A stretch of DNA of 10,103 nt from Cyanobacteria bacterium NC_groundwater_1444_Ag_S-0.65um_54_12 (GTDB taxonomy: Bacteria; Cyanobacteriota; Sericytochromatia; S15B-MN24; VGJW01): the NCBI GenBank assembly GCA_016267585.1, contig JACQUT010000302.1:1-10103 (forward strand). The letters run 5' to 3'. This document shows positions 1,338 through 9,736 of the stretch, one piece after another; positions within the stretch are counted from its first letter, which is position 1, and every line of letters begins with the position of its first letter. Both the position numbers and the translations under genes were made by a program. The notes beneath the pieces were generated by a model that saw only the letters and a program-made list of their open reading frames with translations, was not told the DNA's origin and did not search any database.

Positions 1338-2183
1338 CTACAGCAAGCTAGTGATGCGAGCGCGTAGTTTGCGCATAGCATCTTGCCCCTCGTCAAATCC
1401 TACCATCCGCGAAATCGCCAGACCCAAGCGATCGGAAAGATCCACCATCTGTCCGAAGGTTAGACTTTCCATGGCCTCTGCTCCTATCTCCTGCACGGCG
1501 GATTCCACCAGACTGCGCGCCACATCATAACCTACATATTCCATCACTATCAAAGAGAACGAATCGAAGCGCGTGCGCTGAATTGGCGCATGAGCCGGAT
1601 CTACATCACCATCTACCGTATGAGCCACTGTCGCATTGGTGTATAGCAGTGATTTTAAAGCAGCGCAGGATTCCTCGGCACCCAGCGTGGAAATATCAAA
1701 AAGTTGGGCGATCGAAAAACTACGTGGTAAGCGCCGCATCCAGTGCGGAATCCACTCTGGCGGATCGGAGCGATCCCATTTAAAGGCATCCAGAGCTTCT
1801 TGCGTAAAACTTACTGCTGAAGCGAGATCCGGTAGGAGGGCCTTGAATTGATGGCACTCATCCATGCGGCGCATGCCTTCTAGCAAAATCCAATCGATCT
1901 GCTTGGTGATGTTAGGTGAGGGCATTTCTGCCTGATCCACTGCCAAAACTTTGAATTCTCCACAATTCCACCAACAGATTATGCGAAGCATGGCATCTTC
2001 GCCCGTCAAGGTATTGACAGCCGCGTACTTGAGCTGACCTTTGCTGAAATACATTTCGGCGGATTGGGAGACTGCTACCCGACTAAGCTCGAGCTTGCAA
2101 TCCTTTTGCTCGAGCCGCAGTAGCTGAACAAGATTAGGAAAACTGATGGACGCCAGGTTTCCTTCAAGCAGAATATTGGCCAT
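1338..2183 (-). CDS. DUF4388 (PatA N-terminal-like) domain protein
   Basis: 281 residues. The N-terminus (about 1-115) has the DUF4388 pattern: LEGNLASISFPNLVQLLRLE, then a short beta segment, a YFSKGQLKYA hairpin and GEDAMLRIICWWNCGEF. This domain is common in bacterial signalling proteins and also occurs at the start of cyanobacterial PatA. Residues about 150-190 (FSIAQLFDISTLGAEE...) read like the small helical or winged-helix unit often following DUF4388. The C-terminal 75 residues are helical and unassigned. There is no signal peptide or membrane segment. The gene is the last in the conjugation operon, 35 bases after the JAMM gene. An AAGGAG lies 15 bases before the ATG, rather far, with a weaker GAAGAG closer. 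Its role here is unknown; regulator, adaptor or substrate are all possible. Confidence 0.82.
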   Translation of the reverse strand: MANILLEGNLASISFPNLVQLLRLEQKDCKLELSRVAVSQSAEMYFSKGQLKYAAVNTLTGEDAMLRIICWWNCGEFKVLAVDQAEMPSPNITKQIDWILLEGMRRMDECHQFKALLPDLASAVSFTQEALDAFKWDRSDPPEWIPHWMRRLPRSFSIAQLFDISTLGAEESCAALKSLLYTNATVAHTVDGDVDPAHAPIQRTRFDSFSLIVMEYVGYDVARSLVESAVQEIGAEAMESLTFGQMVDLSDRLGLAISRMVGFDEGQDAMRKLRARITSLL

Positions 2184-2218: not shown

Positions 2219-3472
2219 TCATACCATCTCAACACCAGGCCAGGTTTGGCTAATCCAGAGCGCTAGCAATTGCTTATTGCCCCTGGCTATTCCACCTCGC
2301 AGCATGCTCACCGGGTTGAAACTGGGCAATTGAGCCCGCAAAGGCTGGCTGGCGAGTGCCTGTAGCAAATCACTCTGTGCTTTACATGCGTAGGGATAAG
2401 ATCGCCGCAGAAACCAATGACTTAAACTGAAAAGCCCAAAGCAGCGGCAGAAAGCTGGGCGTGCCTGATAAACCGCGCAACGCTCCGCTATCAAGAAGGG
2501 ACAAGCCAATGGTAAACGTTCGCGTGTCGGCATGACCGGCAACGGGAAGTCAAGCAACCAGTTGTACCAGCGCAACCGCCACCAATAAGGCCGGGCCTCA
2601 CGATAAAAGCGTCGCAAGAACTGCTGCAAGCGTTCTGCGGTCCACTGCTGTTGCAGATAAGCGAATATGGCTTCCCATTCTTCCCGGGAAACCGTGAAGA
2701 GCGCCACCGGATAATAACAACAGTGACTGCAGCCATCGCGGCAAAGTGACTCAGGATAGGCGGCTCGCGCAGCTTTGGCCAGCTCGTCGATCAATTGATA
2801 AAGATCTTGCTGGCCACCACCACCTAGACGATTGGCTAGTGGCAAACGAGCTCGTACTTTTTCATAAGCCGCAGCAAGTTCTGCCGAGCCAGGATTTAGT
2901 AATTCTTCCGCCAGCATGATGGCATGGAAATCATGTGGAAAATAGCGGTGCAGGGCCACGGGCAATCCTGCTCCTCGGAAAGCGGCCTCGTTGCCGGTGA
3001 GCGGATCGAGTACGATTGCTACTTGCCAGTCTTGTGAAAAGCAGGATCGCTGCGTTTGTAAATCAGTAGCGGAAAGGAAAGTACCTAATCCGGGATGGGT
3101 ATGATACCAACCTACTATCAGAAGATCTTCCGGGAGTTCGGCTCGCCCGACAAAAACTGTTTCCCAGGCGCTGGACGTGAATGACAAGTGAACCGCTGTA
3201 CCAATAGCCTGGTGTGCTGGCAAAGCAGCCACTATGTCCACCACCAGCTGGCTAGCATTGCGATAAATTCGGCCCCAAAGAATGCCGCCCACCTCGCTGG
3301 AACAATCGGATTCACCGTGCTGGCGAGCTGCTTCCAGCGCCGCGGTCGTCATGAAGACGGTTACCGGTTCGCCAGGCGGCGCCATTGTCAGAGATCTGGC
3401 CTGGCAAAAATCGATCCAGTCCAGTGGCAAGAAAGGAAGTGGCTCTGGCAGTAATTCATGCCACTCGATCAT
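2219..3472 (-). CDS. JAMM/JAB isopeptidase fused to a YkgJ-type cysteine-cluster domain
   Basis: 417 residues. The N-terminal part is a JAB/MPN metalloprotease of the deubiquitinase type. E60 in SEVGGILWG and the motif H124-T-H126-P...S134-A-T-D137 give the complete HxH(x7)SxxD zinc site, so it should be catalytically active. Its expected job is to cut the modifier from targets and/or trim its precursor. From about 240 the protein changes: C244xxxC248xxC251C252, then CPF (C324), C332 and CRC (C342, C344) match the YkgJ/UPF0153 zinc- or iron-cluster family. Between them lies a Trp/Arg-rich segment (about 285-310). The gene starts 12 bases after the E2 stop, with only a weak ribosome site, suggesting translational coupling. 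Both domains are recognised confidently; the fusion is unusual, and the role of the cysteine cluster (substrate recognition or redox/metal sensing) is inference. Confidence 0.93.
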   Translation of the reverse strand: MIEWHELLPEPLPFLPLDWIDFCQARSLTMAPPGEPVTVFMTTAALEAARQHGESDCSSEVGGILWGRIYRNASQLVVDIVAALPAHQAIGTAVHLSFTSSAWETVFVGRAELPEDLLIVGWYHTHPGLGTFLSATDLQTQRSCFSQDWQVAIVLDPLTGNEAAFRGAGLPVALHRYFPHDFHAIMLAEELLNPGSAELAAAYEKVRARLPLANRLGGGGQQDLYQLIDELAKAARAAYPESLCRDGCSHCCYYPVALFTVSREEWEAIFAYLQQQWTAERLQQFLRRFYREARPYWWRLRWYNWLLDFPLPVMPTRERLPLACPFLIAERCAVYQARPAFCRCFGLFSLSHWFLRRSYPYACKAQSDLLQALASQPLRAQLPSFNPVSMLRGGIARGNKQLLALWISQTWPGVEMV

Positions 3473-3484
3473 TGCTGAACCAGG

Positions 3485-4030
3485 TTATTTTTCATTCATT
3501 CCTGGGGTGTCTACCCAGCTGATGGAACGCTCCGGTATAGCTACCGGACCAGTACTGGCAGCAAACGGATCGGGATCGAGCGGGAAAAGTGCCAAGTGCT
3601 GCTGGGCCCATTTGGCGGCCTCACGATTGGCTGCGCTGTCGAAATCCAGATAGACGGGCTCATACCGCAAAATAGCACCTATTCTGATCAGCAGATTATC
3701 TAATCCCTCACCCACTTGCCAGCGCGCTCCCAGGCAAACGTCGCCATTTTCGAAAACATGCGGATGAAAAATCGGAGTATTCACATGTACTGATGGTGAC
3801 TGTAGCGGGTAGCTGCTCGGCAAACGCAGCTCGAGCTGATGCGTGGTACGGAAGACGGGTTCATTTTCCGCAAGCTTCGCTATGCCCCGGCAACGATAAA
3901 GTAGCCAGTAAGCGGCCGGCGGTGAGCCGCCAGTGCGCTCCAGCAATAGCGCATCATGATTCTTGGCTAGCAGAGCCAGCACCTTCTCGTGATCCGAATA
4001 CAAGCGTCGCGCGCGAGCATCGATATTCAT
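3485..4030 (-). CDS. E2-like ubiquitin-conjugating enzyme (UBC fold)
   Basis: 181 residues. An N-terminal helix (about 3-24, RARRLYSDHEKVLALLAKN) is followed by the UBC beta-meander with Y74-P75-LQSP, then PIFHPHVFENGDVCLG. This aligns with the eukaryotic E2 signature, in which HPN is followed by the catalytic cysteine, here C99. After it come W104, the LDNLLIRIGAILRYEP helix (110-125), and NREAAKWAQQ, as in E2 C-terminal helices. It should accept the modifier from the E1 as a thioester and pass it to a target, probably with the RING-like protein. The HPN asparagine is histidine (H91). The start is the ATG at 4030, which overlaps the UBL stop as ATGA, with AGGAG just upstream inside the UBL gene; a longer reading from 4087 would lie within the UBL gene and is rejected. 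The proline-rich tail (about 150-181) is extra to the core. Confidence 0.93.
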   Translation of the reverse strand: MNIDARARRLYSDHEKVLALLAKNHDALLLERTGGSPPAAYWLLYRCRGIAKLAENEPVFRTTHQLELRLPSSYPLQSPSVHVNTPIFHPHVFENGDVCLGARWQVGEGLDNLLIRIGAILRYEPVYLDFDSAANREAAKWAQQHLALFPLDPDPFAASTGPVAIPERSISWVDTPGMNEK

Positions 4031-4287
4031 GCTCCTGCCTCCAAGAGCGGGACCACTTCCAGAACGTCGCCCGCAACCAGACCGCAACTGCCTACCATGT
4101 CACGGCTAGCAAGCTGCCGGCCCAGTCGCTCGGAACGGACAAGATAGTCAGTATCCGGCGAGAGTTTCCAGTTTTGTCGGCTGGCTTCTAGCAGTTCAGC
4201 GACCGTGTAATCGATTGGCAAGGTCACCTGGGCTTGTCGCGATTTATCAAGGGTACGGAGGTTCAAACTGATTCGATCATCTGTCAT
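4027..4287 (-). CDS. Ubiquitin-like modifier protein (beta-grasp, UBL)
   Basis: 86 residues, near ubiquitin's size. The pattern is a beta hairpin (ISLNLRTLDKSRQAQVTLP), a helix (TVAELLEASRQNW), short strands with LGRQLASRDMVGSCGL, and a final strand AGDVLEVVPLL, as in ubiquitin and YukD/EsaB-like beta-grasp proteins. The C-terminus is E-A-G-A: a glycine (G85) followed by one alanine, instead of a free Gly-Gly. This suggests trimming by the JAMM enzyme before activation, though direct use of the end cannot be excluded. The start is the ATG at 4287, 8 bases after GGAAGGTGA; an upstream ATG at 4353 would add 22 basic residues overlapping the E1 gene and lacks a comparable site. The UBL identity rests mainly on pattern plus position between the E1 and E2 genes. 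It is not a ThiS/MoaD-like sulfur carrier by context. Confidence 0.85.
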   Translation of the reverse strand: MTDDRISLNLRTLDKSRQAQVTLPIDYTVAELLEASRQNWKLSPDTDYLVRSERLGRQLASRDMVGSCGLVAGDVLEVVPLLEAGA

Positions 4288-4327
4288 TTTGCTATTCACC
4301 TTCCTTTCACGCTGGCTTGCCAAACTT

Positions 4328-5464
4328 TTACCAAAGCGAGCCAGCCAGTTCAATATTACGGATGGTTTCTACTGTTATTACCCGTACGATGTGGTGCTCC
4401 GGCACTCCCAGATCCTGCAAAGGATAGGTAGCCAATTCCATTTTATCGGAGATGTCGCTAACCCACTTTGCTGATCGCATACTACCGCAATCGGGACACC
4501 AGAGCTCTTCTAATGGCACTTTAGAACGTGGACGCAGAATGGTGGCTGGCCCACAATGCCGGCAATTCAGGGACAAGACCAGGTCAAATCCCAACTCTAG
4601 TGTTCCCGCTTTCCCGCCTAATAGATCCGCTGCCGTAACTTGGCTCGGGTCACCTGCTAGCTCTACCGCATCTATTACGCCATGGGCACAGCATTCCGGA
4701 TCATGAGGCAAATCATCAACGACGAAACGATATGGCGCTAGCTGTGCAGTCAAACGTTGTCCTGGCAGCAAGCCACCCGCACGCTCATGCCAAAACAGCA
4801 GAGCTTCTTGTACCATCAAGGAGGCACACAGCGCCGCCGGCACAACTGTCAAAGGCACTGGTTGATTGCCCGGCATCCGCAGCAAGCCAGCGCAGGAATA
4901 GCGCTCCGAAAAACGCTTGATCATGCCTGGCGTGGCCTGGCATTCATAGCAGGCTCCGCCCACTGGATGATGAAAAGATACCTGGCAAGCTGCCATACCC
5001 AAGCCGCCGTTCAACCAAGGCGTTCCGGCACGCAATGCCATGCGGTTCAGTATAAAGCGCGCGTTGACCGAGTCCAGACAACCAAAAACCAGATCAGATC
5101 GACGCAACAGCCCTAGTCCCAGGTCACACCAAAGATCGCCCACTACCGGGATCATTCGCCCGGCTGGAAAAATTTCGGCAAGCCGTTCGGCCAGCACTTC
5201 AGCCTTCGGACGCCCGAGATCAGACGGACCAAAGAGCACACTGCGCGCCAGGTTTGATATTTCAATGCGATCGAAATCAACGAGGATAAGCGTGCCTACT
5301 CCTAGCAAGGCAAGGTTCTTTGCCACTTCGTTGCCCAGCGCACCACAGCCTGCCACCATGGCCACCGTACCGGCAAGCTTATCTTGATTCCACCACGCGA
5401 TCGCCCGCTGACGGTCGAAGCGGTCGTGCGCCGGAAGCTGGAAACCGAGACCTTCACTTGTCAT
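4328..5464 (-). CDS. E1-like ThiF-family UBL-activating enzyme
   Basis: 378 residues. It should adenylate the C-terminus of the neighbouring UBL with ATP and hand it to the E2. The ThiF/MoeB/E1 Rossmann fold is clear: GCGALG (39-44) for nucleotide binding, VDFD (D63/D65), NLAR (N71, R74), K87 in GRPKAEV, and D131 in GCLDS. C172xxC175 plus C258, C259 and H261 could hold the usual structural zinc. C191 in ERYSCAGLL is a candidate thioester cysteine. The last 80 residues add a zinc-ribbon-like module, C301xxC304 and C323xxC326, after the adenylation domain. The ATG overlaps the RING-OB stop codon as ATGA, and the gene ends 40 bases before the UBL start. The family is certain; the E1 role rather than MoeB/ThiF sulfur transfer comes from the adjacent UBL, E2 and JAMM genes. 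Confidence 0.94.
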   Translation of the reverse strand: MTSEGLGFQLPAHDRFDRQRAIAWWNQDKLAGTVAMVAGCGALGNEVAKNLALLGVGTLILVDFDRIEISNLARSVLFGPSDLGRPKAEVLAERLAEIFPAGRMIPVVGDLWCDLGLGLLRRSDLVFGCLDSVNARFILNRMALRAGTPWLNGGLGMAACQVSFHHPVGGACYECQATPGMIKRFSERYSCAGLLRMPGNQPVPLTVVPAALCASLMVQEALLFWHERAGGLLPGQRLTAQLAPYRFVVDDLPHDPECCAHGVIDAVELAGDPSQVTAADLLGGKAGTLELGFDLVLSLNCRHCGPATILRPRSKVPLEELWCPDCGSMRSAKWVSDISDKMELATYPLQDLGVPEHHIVRVITVETIRNIELAGSLW

Positions 5465-6099
5465 GTAATTATCCGGATCTGCACCGGTGTTTTAGGCAGA
5501 ATTTCCAGGCCATATTGGGGATGTTCGAGCAAGAGGCCACGAACTTGGATGAGATGATGTTCGTAACTCACCGGATCGATCCCCCGTTGCTCCCACTTGT
5601 AGAGTTCGCTGGCAAAGATGACTAATTTGAATCCTTTAAAAGGATTACGATCATTATGAAACTTGACAAAATGAGTTCCGGTAGCAGTTGAAATCTGATG
5701 GTGCAATACCCATCCTTCGAAGACAATGGCCTGACCAAGATGATCGGGCAAGGCCTCCAGACGGATGACCGTGGCGTGAGGATCAGCCCGTGTAGCACTG
5801 GTGCTGACGCTCGCCAGCGCCAGGACTGAAAAGCGCGAGGTACGGCGACAGTTGCAACAGGCGCCGGCATTGTGCATCGCGAGAAAATCCCACGAGGTCT
5901 GATGGTAGCCGGTACCACAAGCCAGACAAACCACCGCACGCTCACCAGCCACCAGTACGGTTCCATCCAGCGGATCGTAGCAACCGACCAGATCACTGGC
6001 ACCAGCTAACTCCCACCTGAGCTCCGAAGTAGCTGCTAGTTCGCCACCCGGGGCCATTTCCTGCCAGGTCAAGCCTGGCCGACGCGAGCGACGAGTCAT
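5461..6099 (-). CDS. RING-like zinc domain fused to OB-fold, candidate E3 ligase
   Basis: 212 residues from the ATG at 6099, chosen because AGGA sits 5 bases upstream and it overlaps the previous stop as ATGA; a start at 6135 would add 12 residues. Residues about 38-86 carry C40, then C58xxC61, H66, W70, and C81-C82-x-C84. The CxxC...YHxxSW...CxxC spacing resembles RING/treble-clef fingers, though one expected ligand near C40 is not evident. Residues about 120-212 (from LGQAIVFEGWV to VRGLLLEHPQYGLEILPKTPVQI) read like an OB-fold of the type found beside nucleases and tRNA-anticodon-binding domains. The gene directly precedes E1, UBL and E2, so an E3-like role bridging the E2 to a target is the natural proposal. 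No signal peptide or membrane segment is seen. The domain calls are by eye, and the E3 function is inference. Confidence 0.75.
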   Translation of the reverse strand: MTRRSRRPGLTWQEMAPGGELAATSELRWELAGASDLVGCYDPLDGTVLVAGERAVVCLACGTGYHQTSWDFLAMHNAGACCNCRRTSRFSVLALASVSTSATRADPHATVIRLEALPDHLGQAIVFEGWVLHHQISTATGTHFVKFHNDRNPFKGFKLVIFASELYKWEQRGIDPVSYEHHLIQVRGLLLEHPQYGLEILPKTPVQIRIIT

Positions 6100-6596
6100 G
6101 GTCCTCGCTGCACGGTTAGCTGCAGCTTGAGCCAAAGCGGCAGGGAAGGGAAGTTAGCTTTGCCATCAATCGAAATAATATGGCCGCAAGCCGGAAGATA
6201 TTCTATGAGAATTGGTTGATCGAGTTTTTTGGCGTCGAACAGCCTACTGGGAACATAGTAAGTGCGCTCACCCAGGTCAAGTGGAATGAGTTCGGTGGTG
6301 AGTACAAGGCTTCCAACTCGCCCGATCAGCGATTCCACACGATTGTCTCGGAGGTCCCGGTAGATGGGGCGTAGATAGCGCTGCAAATGCCGGCCGATTA
6401 TCAACAAGGGAAGCAGCAAGATGGCACTCAAGTAGCGCAAACCAATATCCTCGCTAGCGATCGCCCATGCCAAAAAAACCGCATAACTGCCCAGCATTGC
6501 GAGCTGGCAACCCAGTAAAATAAAGCAATGTCTGCGCAAGTAACGCCGTTCCCGCGACTTCAAGGCACGTTTACCACGAAAAACTACACCACCCAC
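6096..6596 (-). CDS. Two-helix membrane protein of unknown function
   Basis: 166 residues starting at a GTG (6596); an in-frame TAA lies 18 bases upstream, so no longer start exists. The first 23 residues are strongly basic (several Arg/Lys). Two hydrophobic segments follow at about 24-47 and 51-71, then a soluble C-terminal domain (about 75-166) with beta-rich character (YYVPSRLF, ILIEYLP, HIISIDG). The basic start suggests that both ends lie in the cytoplasm. The ribosome site is weak. The stop codon overlaps the start of the RING-OB gene as ATGA, so the two are likely translated together. I do not recognise the family. Position suggests a membrane anchor or sensor for the conjugation machinery, which is inference only. 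Confidence 0.78.
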   Translation of the reverse strand: MGGVVFRGKRALKSRERRYLRRHCFILLGCQLAMLGSYAVFLAWAIASEDIGLRYLSAILLLPLLIIGRHLQRYLRPIYRDLRDNRVESLIGRVGSLVLTTELIPLDLGERTYYVPSRLFDAKKLDQPILIEYLPACGHIISIDGKANFPSLPLWLKLQLTVQRGP

Positions 6597-6614: not shown

Positions 6615-6932
6615 TTAACACTCCTCGCGCTTTTGCCGCACCTTGGTGATCAATTCTTGCAAACTCTGCTTTGCCGGATATTTGCCAGTCAAAGCCGTCT
6701 TATCCTGAAATAGTTCGATAGCGCTTCGTAATTGTCCCATGCTTTGCGGGGAAGTAGCAAAAAGCGTGACGGTCAAGAAGGTAGTACCGTCTTCGAGATT
6801 CTTGGTGCCAATCAGCACGTTAGTCTGCTGTTTTCGAACGATGCTCTTGACTTCGCTCACGTACTCGGTCGGAATGACGAAATCGCAAGCTGGCTTGGCG
6901 AAACTTTCACTGGCCGGTGCTTTATCTTTCAC
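6615..6932 (-). CDS. Small conserved-looking hypothetical protein
   Basis: 105 residues from a GTG at 6932, with AGGTG five bases upstream. It has no signal peptide, membrane helix or cysteine motif. The pattern suggests a compact alpha/beta fold: a helix at EYVSEVKSIVRKQ, strands NVLIGTK and TFLTVTLFAT separated by an acidic turn, a helix at QLRSAIELF, and a basic C-terminal helix ending in EEC. It lies between the glycine-zipper gene (42 bases upstream) and the two-helix membrane protein (18 bases downstream), all on the same strand, so it belongs to the operon. I do not recognise the family. It could be an adaptor, a regulator or a modification target of the pathway. Confidence 0.7.
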   Translation of the reverse strand: MKDKAPASESFAKPACDFVIPTEYVSEVKSIVRKQQTNVLIGTKNLEDGTTFLTVTLFATSPQSMGQLRSAIELFQDKTALTGKYPAKQSLQELITKVRQKREEC

Positions 6933-6974: not shown

Positions 6975-7391
6975 TTAATTGGCCGCTGGCGGCGGCTCGC
7001 TGGCAGCGACGAATTGCTTGGCCAGCTCCGGGGGAAACTCATCATACTCGACGCCTAGTGTCAGCTTGTTTTTGATGTCTCGCCACTGTTCGGCACTGAT
7101 GTAGACTTTACGAGTTTCCTCGAATAGTGGATCTTTGATCAGGATCCCGCGGTTTTGAATTTTTTGCGGATCAGAAGAATTGAATCCCCAAACTGCTCCG
7201 GCCAGGCCGCCTATAATGGCACCCGCTATGGGAAGTGCTCCACCCGTCGCGATACCAGACAAGACGACAACGGATCCCAGAACCAACCCGCCGATCGCCC
7301 CCAGCACGCCGCGCTTGGCTGTACGCTCTGCCGCGCCTGCCTCGAAACGCGCTGGCGTATCACGAAAACTTCGTCTCAAGCTATCGGACAT
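6975..7391 (-). CDS. Glycine-zipper membrane protein, first gene of the operon
   Basis: 138 residues from the ATG at 7391; the ribosome site is weak (AGG eight bases upstream). A basic N-terminal 27 residues leads into a long hydrophobic, glycine-rich stretch (about 28-69) with Gly at three- to four-residue spacing (GAIGG, GIATGG, GAIIGGLAGA). This is the glycine-zipper pattern of packed membrane helices, either one hairpin or two tightly packed segments. The C-terminal half (70-138) is soluble and charged, with a helix around EQWRDIKNKL and a Pro/Ala-rich tail. The molecule is too generic for a family name; glycine-zipper proteins include membrane oligomers and envelope proteins. It appears to open the minus-strand operon, facing away from the SRPBCC gene. 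Confidence 0.75.
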   Translation of the reverse strand: MSDSLRRSFRDTPARFEAGAAERTAKRGVLGAIGGLVLGSVVVLSGIATGGALPIAGAIIGGLAGAVWGFNSSDPQKIQNRGILIKDPLFEETRKVYISAEQWRDIKNKLTLGVEYDEFPPELAKQFVAASEPPPAAN

Positions 7392-7507: not shown

Positions 7508-8107
7508 ATGATATTGACCTTGGTGGTCGCTGCGGTTCAACAGCTGGTATTCAGCTCGGACCTGCTCGCCAATTTCGAACCCACCGTCACAGAGCGCCGC
7601 GCCCAAGAAAAAGGGACGGCAACCGTACGAATTCACGATACCAGAAGTACCACTAGCAAAGTGGTGCAGGGCGAGTTGTTAGTTCGTGCACCAGTCCGGG
7701 TCGTCTGGGGTGTCGTTACCGATTACAGTTATTATCCACGGCTATTTTCTCGGATGTTGCGCAGTGAAGTACGACAGCAAGCAGGCGACTGGGAAGAACA
7801 CTACAGCTTGGTGCAGTATCCCTGGCCCTACGGTCCGCGCTGGGTGCTAACTACCATCCATCACGACAACGAGCAGCAAACGGTCCGTTTCAGGCGGCTT
7901 GATGGCACCATTCGCGAGCTAGAGGGCATCTGGCAGATGCGCGAACATCAGCTAGGAGCGAGATTACAGTATGCAGTGCGCCTGGATCCCGGTTTGCCAT
8001 TCATACCCAGCTGGATCATAACCTGGGGCACCAGTTTCATGCTTCCCGATATCCTCCGTTCAGTAAAGACGGAAGCCGAGCGGCGTAACAGCAAGCAGTC
8101 ACCATAA
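7508..8107 (+). CDS. SRPBCC/START-like (polyketide cyclase/COQ10-type) protein
   Basis: 199 residues. After a hydrophobic N-terminus (1-15) that could be a weak signal peptide or anchor, residues about 36-195 have the pattern of the SRPBCC helix-grip fold: GELLVRAPVRVVWGVVTDYSYYPRLFSRM is the typical opening strand, helix and 'tDY..yp' segment. It is followed by beta strands with YPWPYGPRW and a C-terminal amphipathic helix (FMLPDILRSVKTEAERR). These proteins bind hydrophobic ligands in a deep pocket; the ligand cannot be told here. Translation starts at ATG 7508 after GAGGAAG. The gene runs divergently from the operon and ends before a strong hairpin. No link to ubiquitin-like chemistry is evident. 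Confidence 0.8.
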   Translation: MILTLVVAAVQQLVFSSDLLANFEPTVTERRAQEKGTATVRIHDTRSTTSKVVQGELLVRAPVRVVWGVVTDYSYYPRLFSRMLRSEVRQQAGDWEEHYSLVQYPWPYGPRWVLTTIHHDNEQQTVRFRRLDGTIRELEGIWQMREHQLGARLQYAVRLDPGLPFIPSWIITWGTSFMLPDILRSVKTEAERRNSKQSP

Positions 8108-8910: not shown

Positions 8911-9276
8911 ATGTCATTAGCGTTGAGCCAAAAGACGATCGGTAATATTCAGGTCCTTGTTTTGGCCGGTGAGATCGATGCCCAGACACTCCCGCCACTG
9001 GAAGGCAAGCTTCAAGAATTGCTTGATAAAGGGCATTATTCATTCGTTCTTGATTTCCAGCAGGTGTCTTTTATCGCTTCAGCTGGATTAGGAGTGTTGA
9101 TGAGCGTAATCGGAACGATACAAGAAAATAACGGCGATCTCGTGATAGCCAGCGCGCAGCCCGAGGTGTACCGTACTTTTGATCTCCTCGACTTCACTAC
9201 CTTGTTCAAATTTACCGATAGCGTGGCAGCTGGAGTGGCGCTTTTCCCGAATGCAGCTGGTGTACAGGGGGACTGA
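8911..9276 (+). CDS. STAS-domain anti-sigma factor antagonist (RsbV/SpoIIAA-like)
   Basis: 121 residues. The STAS fold is clear: an N-terminal strand NIQVLVLAGEID, a first helix (PPLEGKLQELLDKG), strand FVLDFQQVSFI, then the phosphorylation loop A-S57-A-G-L-G-V-L, where the family usually has D-S-S/A-G-L-G. S57 is the likely serine phosphorylated by the neighbouring HATPase kinase; the preceding Asp is Ala here. In partner switching, the unphosphorylated antagonist traps the kinase and frees its target. AAGGTGA lies before ATG 8911. The stop is one base before the next ATG, so the two genes form a co-translated pair. The matching phosphatase class is at the left end of the window. Confidence 0.92.
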   Translation: MSLALSQKTIGNIQVLVLAGEIDAQTLPPLEGKLQELLDKGHYSFVLDFQQVSFIASAGLGVLMSVIGTIQENNGDLVIASAQPEVYRTFDLLDFTTLFKFTDSVAAGVALFPNAAGVQGD

Positions 9277-9277
9277 T

Positions 9278-9736
9278 ATGGAAGATGCTCACCAATCTGC
9301 CGATTCACCATCTTTCAAACCAATATCTGTTAGTTTACCCTCGGATGTCAGTTATCTGGACATCGCGCGTACTTTCGTAGCAGATGTTGGTAATAAAGTT
9401 GGTCTGTTGGCCAGTGAGATACATGATCTGCAACTTGCCGTAACTGAAGCGGTAACAAATGTTATCGAGCATGCTTACGCTGGAGATAGTAGCCAACGTA
9501 TAGAACTAGCCTTCGAAAAAGCGGGGGAATGCTTCACCATTGTGATTACTGATAATAGTGGAAATCGTTTCGATCCAGTCAATTACCCGGAGCCTGATAT
9601 GAAGGAATACCTCTCTCAATATCGCGCCGGGGGGCTAGGCTTATTTCTTATGCGGAAATTGATGGATCAGGTTGAATTTTTCTCTGATAGCTCTGGAACT
9701 AATCACCTGAGATTAATAAAGCGGGTAAAAAGCTAA
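9278..9736 (+). CDS. RsbW-like anti-sigma factor serine kinase (HATPase_c_2)
   Basis: 152 residues. It has a GHKL ATPase domain in its short RsbW/SpoIIAB form: the N-box L-x-L-A-V-T-E57-A-V-T-N61-V-I-E-H-A-Y, the G1-type segment TDNSGNRFDP (91-100) and the G2 glycines AGGLGLFLM (117-125). The start is the ATG at 9278, just after the STAS stop and preceded by CAGGGGG; a start at 9179 would lie inside the STAS gene and is rejected. Expected roles are to phosphorylate the adjacent STAS protein on serine and to bind a sigma factor or other output protein. No sigma factor gene follows: the next gene is on the opposite strand nine bases on. The output partner is therefore unidentified. Confidence 0.92.
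   Translation: MEDAHQSADSPSFKPISVSLPSDVSYLDIARTFVADVGNKVGLLASEIHDLQLAVTEAVTNVIEHAYAGDSSQRIELAFEKAGECFTIVITDNSGNRFDPVNYPEPDMKEYLSQYRAGGLGLFLMRKLMDQVEFFSDSSGTNHLRLIKRVKS

Follow-up and report, generated by a model that had tools for sequence, protein, structure and literature searches.

A RING-containing ubiquitin-like conjugation operon in a groundwater relative of cyanobacteria, with a tail motif shared by several of its proteins

Does a bacterial operon that combines a ubiquitin-like protein (UBL) with its activating (E1) and conjugating (E2) enzymes, a RING-like protein and a JAMM peptidase serve phage defence, or does it encode a resident pathway of the cell? The question is raised by Cyanobacteria bacterium NC_groundwater_1444_Ag_S-0.65um_54_12 (GCA_016267585.1), a metagenome-assembled genome (MAG) of the Sericytochromatia with 64.6% completeness, in which such genes lie on contig JACQUT010000302.1; the window analysed is this whole contig of 10,103 nucleotides (nt). 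We consider it fairly probable that the operon encodes a conjugation pathway for the UBL, resident in the cell and probably linked to the membrane, which works as proposed below, with a purpose more likely outside defence. It holds an E1-E2-RING-JAMM chain of the kind thought to foreshadow eukaryotic ubiquitylation, and no experiment on this bacterial pathway class was found in the literature searched, outside which most subscription papers lay.

The conjugation core and the RING-OB protein

Nine minus-strand genes, running from 7391 to 1338 with intergenic gaps of at most 42 nt, form one unit in the order Gz138, p105, TM166, RING-OB, E1, UBL, E2, JAMM-CxxCxxCC and DUF4388. ATGA-type overlaps of 4 nt occur at three junctions (TM166/RING-OB, RING-OB/E1 and UBL/E2). 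The core consists of the following features (lengths in amino acids, aa).

4027..4287, minus strand: UBL, 86 aa, single ubiquitin-like domain; C-terminus ...PLLEAGA, Gly85 codon at 4035-4033
3485..4030, minus strand: E2, 181 aa, UBC family with HPH motif; catalytic Cys99 codon at 3736-3734; ATGA overlap with the UBL
4328..5464, minus strand: E1, 378 aa, adenylation domain and C-terminal zinc-ribbon/UFD-like domain; catalytic Cys191 codon at 4894-4892
5461..6099, minus strand: RING-OB protein, 212 aa, candidate E3 (ligase)
5836..5988, minus strand: RING-like domain, residues 38-88 of RING-OB; one zinc site kept, judged by eye on the alignment
5464..5772, minus strand: OB-fold domain, residues 110-212 of RING-OB
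2219..3472, minus strand: JAMM (HTHPGLGTFLSATD) and CxxCxxCC metal-binding domain in one fused gene; two genes in relatives

A first-pass annotation of the window had described a cassette of RING-like/OB, E1, UBL, E2 (C99) and JAMM genes, and their open frames, order and strand proved real. The gene set stood, with its details amended: the JAMM is fused to a CxxCxxCC domain, the RING is without zinc site I, and the unit starts further upstream.

Relatives were collected by scanning one genome per species with an E2 alignment, which yielded 222 E2 loci, the best 80 of which were read. E1, UBL, E2 and JAMM occurred together at 59 of these 80, and many of the remaining loci reach a contig edge. 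In Pfam searches of the locus proteins, E1 matched ThiF (E = 1.6e-41), E2 matched UQ_con (6.1e-11) and the JAMM gene matched Prok-JAB (1.6e-9) and JAB (1.1e-8). The UBL alone scored 15.9 bits against YukD, under the cut-off of 27, and a profile of 26 operon UBLs matched polyubiquitin at 8.1e-13 and single ubiquitins and variants at 0.0008 to 0.02. The annotation would have been overturned by homologues that lacked the E1/E2 cysteines or the gene order, or by a UBL and E2 of other folds; the cysteines and the order are conserved, and the profiles point to ubiquitin and Rad6-type E2s. Cys99 was kept in 18/18 aligned E2s and Cys191 in 40/40 aligned E1s (40 of the 71 collected), this locus counted in both; Cys191 stands in the stretch that follows the adenylation core, as in the canonical E1s UBA1/UBA3/SAE2. 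The UBLs usually end in Ala-Gly, which stands at the very C-terminus in 55 of 74 loci and is followed by one extra Ala (EAGA) in this locus. At a Hormoscilla locus (L041), the E1 frame is short and the UBL is without the terminal Gly, and that locus has probably decayed. Two neighbouring E2-like genes with acidic-hydrophobic C-terminal tails were seen in Pelolinea submarina (L093:7902-9269).

The E1 has one adenylation domain, and its nearest matches by sequence profile are eukaryotic E1s. When its predicted model was compared with known structures, five of 50 rows reached residue 375-376 (9dqb, 2nvu, 9jtc, 6nya and 4ii2; rmsd 4.4-7.9) and 28 ended at or before residue 265. The model appears to extend towards the UFD of eukaryotic E1s, a fold that is partly supported. 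A UBL together with a ThiF-like E1 could also point to a ThiS/MoaD-like sulfur-carrier pathway. That reading is highly improbable given the eukaryotic-like E1 profile, and it was rejected because an E2 with an active site, a RING and a JAMM share the operon and no rhodanese or cofactor gene occurs among the proteins of the window.

For the conjugation pathway we propose the following steps. The UBL precursor (EAGA) would be cut back as far as Gly85, with the JAMM enzyme as the probable protease. E1 would adenylate the UBL, load it on Cys191 and pass it to Cys99 of an E2 that the UFD-like domain may recruit. RING-OB, perhaps aided by TM166/Gz138, would deliver the charged E2 (E2~UBL) to substrates selected via its OB domain, and the JAMM enzyme with its CxxCxxCC domain would take the tag off.

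In the RING-OB protein, a RING without zinc site I is fused to an OB fold, a combination that is new here. The RING pattern was kept in 11/11 aligned sequences, this locus included: the CLxC/CxxC zinc site is retained and the other is gone (DPLD, HxxSW), with DP[LV]-x and HxxS standing in place of site I in Cyanobacteria and this locus. The locus RING scored 15.7 bits against Prok-RING_1, under the cut-off of 29.1; among relatives, two Chloroflexota RINGs passed (31.3 and 39.5 bits) and one cyanobacterial RING fell below (19.8). Foldseek/VIA match lists for the RING-OB model were filled by the OB domain. RING-OB was found in 5/5 genomes of the GTDB family, with marginal matches of under 50 residues in 2 of 54 others, and it is related to a locus protein of a Desulfobacterales MAG (L105, 9.8e-15). 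Some cyanobacterial RINGs with transmembrane (TM) segments (L033, L044) have an OB-like C-terminal segment as judged by eye. In one family genome (G001), RING-OB and E1 are separated by an additional copy of the RING alone (L024:2696-3193), which shares 58-61% identity with the RING part.

Several features weigh against an E3 role. The zinc site I ligands C2 and C6 are missing in 11/11 aligned RINGs (by eye), so that the RING has at most one zinc site, departs from the two-zinc cross-brace and is a candidate whose E3 activity is unproven. The E2 is without the SPA loop-7 residues, through which eukaryotic E2s bind RINGs. RING-OB could instead be an adaptor for nucleic acid or for the UBL, with E2 acting directly on substrates. 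We find this possible but doubtful: U-box E3s function without zinc, Chloroflexota relatives keep a fuller ligand set within the same operon, and Trp70 of the RING is invariant across the 11 aligned sequences. A review reports bacterial RINGs without two pairs of zinc ligands (PMC11354881).

Known systems, distribution and purpose

Bacterial RING-type UBL conjugation operons were reportedly described by Burroughs et al. in 2011, and this locus belongs to these systems, already predicted by comparative genomics. It shares with them a UBL, E1, classical E2, JAB and RING in one operon, and membrane-linked RINGs occur among them; unlike them, it has a RING without zinc site I, the RING-OB and JAMM-CxxCxxCC fusions and the tail motif described below. 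The RING had been regarded as an addition that made the locus fuller and more eukaryote-like. A RING pattern was present at 57 of the 80 loci (42 with upstream CxxC and HxxC, and 15, all cyanobacterial, with HxxS), and profile-detected RINGs at L047 and L105 raise the number to 59. The addition itself is not new, as PMC7159879, citing Burroughs et al. 2011, describes prokaryotic operons in which UBL, E1, E2 and JAB genes are joined by one for a RING-type E3. A cascade of Ub, E1, E2, srfp and Rpn11 from Caldiarchaeum subterraneum has been reconstituted, according to PMC5654768. By that account it resembles this locus in its enzyme set, an extension past the terminal Gly, the C-terminal UBL-fold domain of E1 and a JAMM adjoining the operon, and it differs in being archaeal and having a GG terminus and a small RING protein; the OB fold and tail motif were not looked for there.

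The enzyme classes (UBL, E1, E2, JAMM) are also those of the Bil/Bub-type antiphage systems, in which the UBL is attached to phage proteins during infection, and PADLOC E1-E2 and JAB models matched locus proteins. According to PMC11354881, BilABCD is a four-gene operon without a RING, in which BilA has two UBL domains and BilD has inactive and active adenylation halves. The locus has a single UBL, a separate E1 with one adenylation domain and no inactive half, and a RING, and its match to the BilD model was no better than 1.3e-6; Bil membership was rejected as both the tandem UBL and the two-half E1 are missing. The proposal that the locus is a distinct subtype with a fuller pathway than Bil is borne out. 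Cap2/Cap3 (CBASS type II), 6A-MBL and EAD1-UBL-E2 conflict systems likewise share E1, E2 and JAB domains, but they have fused E1-E2 or UBL-E2, whereas the UBL, E1 and E2 of this locus are separate genes. One cyanobacterial locus of our set (L028; 8502-9956) does encode an EAD1-UBL-E2 fusion whose UBL and E2 meet at AG|A, an arrangement of the conflict systems in PMC7159879, and this favours an antiphage role.

The distribution argues for residence. Phylum-wide, the E2 profile was found in 13/386 genomes: 5/5 of the GTDB family, two of which belong to one genus, 0/13 in the rest of the class and 8/368 elsewhere. A single E2 query matched 5/5 family genomes (this one included) and 4 of 93 other genomes searched; G009, of the same order and among the 13, gave a marginal match with it (E = 8e-4) within an 879-aa frame. 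The set of RING-OB, E1, UBL, E2 and JAMM is present in 5/5 family genomes, and the order RING-OB, E1, UBL, E2, JAMM is conserved in L023, L024 and L025, the genes of G004 being split over two short contigs. The pathway E2 is near-universal in at least one Chloroflexota family, which was picked via a carrier (47/52 genomes; 48/56 in its order). The E1 tree follows phylum for the most part, with one change for Cyanobacteriota (titled rows), one for Chloroflexota and three for Planctomycetota, 11 rows being unlabelled. The Chloroflexota presence and this tree suggest a resident function more than mobile defence, and family-wide presence is evidence against the view of bacterial UBL conjugation as mainly antiviral. 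A scan of IMG/VR viral contigs with a single E2 query, which detects close relatives only, gave 18 pattern matches and zero relatives, and no mobile or phage domain was found in the 15 proteins of the window.

Other observations pull the opposite way. Phage defence is the activity of published bacterial relatives, according to PMC12687455, and the system is patchy across Cyanobacteriota beyond the family (the 8/368 above). In the E1 tree, the Cyanobacteriota sequences L027 and L028 have long branches and group with the Chloroflexota/Planctomycetota side, the Cyanobacteria have an Acidobacteriota row as neighbour, and several branches are long, contrary to a simple vertical story. Taking both sides together, we regard an antiphage role as unlikely and a resident pathway as the better reading; for its purpose, envelope or membrane-protein homeostasis is more likely than phage defence.

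The first-pass annotation had counted membrane proteins among the marks of a fuller pathway.

6096..6596, minus strand: TM166, membrane protein with two predicted TM segments; present in 3/5 family genomes
6615..6932, minus strand: p105, small protein; present in 2/5 family genomes
6975..7391, minus strand: Gz138, glycine-zipper-like membrane protein, first gene of the unit; weak matches, also in L024

The evidence for a membrane link is mixed. In the relatives, TM segments were predicted in 20/24 cyanobacterial RING-cluster proteins, 29/54 of the other RING cluster and 58/110 JAMM proteins. Together with the segments of TM166 and Gz138, and with partners in other phyla that are dynamin-like, FHA-membrane or trypsin-like proteins, they point to a membrane role by inference. 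In this locus, neither the JAMM nor RING-OB has a predicted segment; nor are the RING, TM166, p105 and Gz138 all universal in relatives, and these points count against the proposed pathway.

A shared tail motif

E2, JAMM and RING-OB carry similar short motifs in their tails.

3506..3523, minus strand: E2 C-tail (ISWVDT)
3452..3469, minus strand: JAMM N-tail (IEWHEL)
6055..6072, minus strand: RING-OB N-tail (LTWQEM)

The motif [ILVM]xWx[DEN] occurred in 5/5 E2 C-tails, 5/5 JAMM N-tails and 9/11 RING-OB N-tails, the two without it beginning later. For four relatives, the motif had itself been used to find the JAMM segment, which biases that count; N-tails cut at a fixed distance from HxHP had it in 4/4, the locus gene being excluded with CxxC as its best profile. 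The background in mechanically chosen flanking open reading frames (ORFs) was 5/507 C-tails and 11/507 N-tails. In Cyanobacteria, the motif was present in E2 (15/19), JAMM (16/18), RING N-regions (11/22) and, for one more gene of the operon (cluster 7), the C-tail (12/13). Shuffling of the same segments reached these counts in 0 of 1000 or 2000 trials. As relatedness inflates every such shuffle test, the case for the motif is that proteins without homology to one another have it in common.

The aromatic form was not enriched in E1 and UBL, as expected if one of the two is the receptor; a second form was enriched in cyanobacterial E1 and UBL (5 sites vs a shuffle mean of 0.4). In Chloroflexota, this second form (phi-x-phi-[TS]-x-[DEN]-[DEN]-phi) lay N-terminal to RINGs in 13/16 cases, in a CAP-domain gene in 4/5 and in a gene adjoining a dynamin-family GTPase in 10/16, and DDxGINIL-like tails ended 36/40 E2s.

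Other counts go against the motif. The relaxed form, which gave the 16/18 in cyanobacterial JAMM, was selected post hoc with the sequences already seen, and the strict regular expression matched 1/14 cyanobacterial JAMM regions because the residue following the acidic one varies. The relaxed aromatic form was absent from Chloroflexota JAMM (0/67) and E2 (0/40). Strict forms were rare in the set of Planctomycetota and others (E2 1/23, JAMM 2/21, RING regions 0/14 and 1/14). At L038, L047 and L105, the motif was present in JAMM (2/3) and E2 (1/3); out of 1000 shuffles, 15 and 49 reached these counts.

We tentatively suggest that RING-type UBL systems use a docking code, in which one tail motif would mark E2, E3, deconjugase and partners and bind the UBL. 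This would be a bacterial counterpart of SUMO and its SUMO-interacting motifs (SIMs) that arose outside eukaryotes and could be used to find substrates. Its forms would be phi-x-W-x-[DE]-phi in the cyanobacterial branch, and phi-x-I-[TS]-x-[DE]-D-phi with the E2 C-terminal DDxGINIL in Chloroflexota. The resemblance to a SIM-style code is one of sequence and the partner is unproven: the hydrophobic-acidic tails of E2, JAMM and RING may all dock on one protein, for which the UBL is the likeliest candidate. SIMs, as PMC12751080 describes them, lie in disordered regions of E3s and their partners and have a hydrophobic beta-like core with acidic residues beside it; unlike them, the bacterial motif is Trp-centred and its binding to the UBL is putative. 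A literature search for such a motif turned up no bacterial case. If the suggestion is true, the interaction map, and possibly substrates, become directly testable.

Accessory genes and neighbours

1338..2183, minus strand: DUF4388 protein, last gene of the unit (Pfam DUF4388, 2.5e-12)
7508..8107, plus strand: START/SRPBCC-fold (Polyketide_cyc) neighbour, divergent; also adjoins the operon in L024 and L025

The DUF4388 protein had been counted as a pathway component, which the relatives do not support: next to the cluster, tblastn did not detect it in L021, L022, L024 and L025, nor did blastp, the only search of L023, detect it there, L024, which stops just past the JAMM, and L022, which falls short of that side, being uninformative there. 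In four relatives, the CxxCxxCC domain has a gene of its own, within about 5 kb of RING-OB, and domains of this type are widespread (18/18 searched genomes of the class, 18/20 overall). Between it and RING-OB these four relatives have a 220-aa gene, acetyltransferase-like by eye and with no Pfam match, which was not found in this locus. A second JAMM is frequent in Chloroflexota loci.

Four profile seeds (JAMM of L023 and L025, CxxC of L025, TM166 of L024) are partial pieces, and the family matches were repeated by BLAST. Among the protein clusters are a few ORFs that have TPRs alone (L034, L039), and one locus assigned to a RING cluster does not show the RING pattern (L091). Pfam matched 2/10 flank ORFs of relatives, several of which are possibly spurious. 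In this locus, the Rfam scan gave zero matches and the promoter/terminator scan was not above shuffled sequence.

The operon is flanked by a plus-strand partner-switching set, comprising a SpoIIE phosphatase (27-1259), a STAS protein (8911-9276) and an RsbW-like kinase (9179-9736). Chloroflexota loci (L048-L101, e.g. L052:2099-4861) have two further genes near E1, one for a dynamin-family GTPase (cluster 5, 16 loci) and one that bears the motif (cluster 4, 20 loci). In Planctomycetota (L059, L070, L081 and others), FHA-membrane and trypsin-like protease genes with motif-like N-termini stand beside E2.

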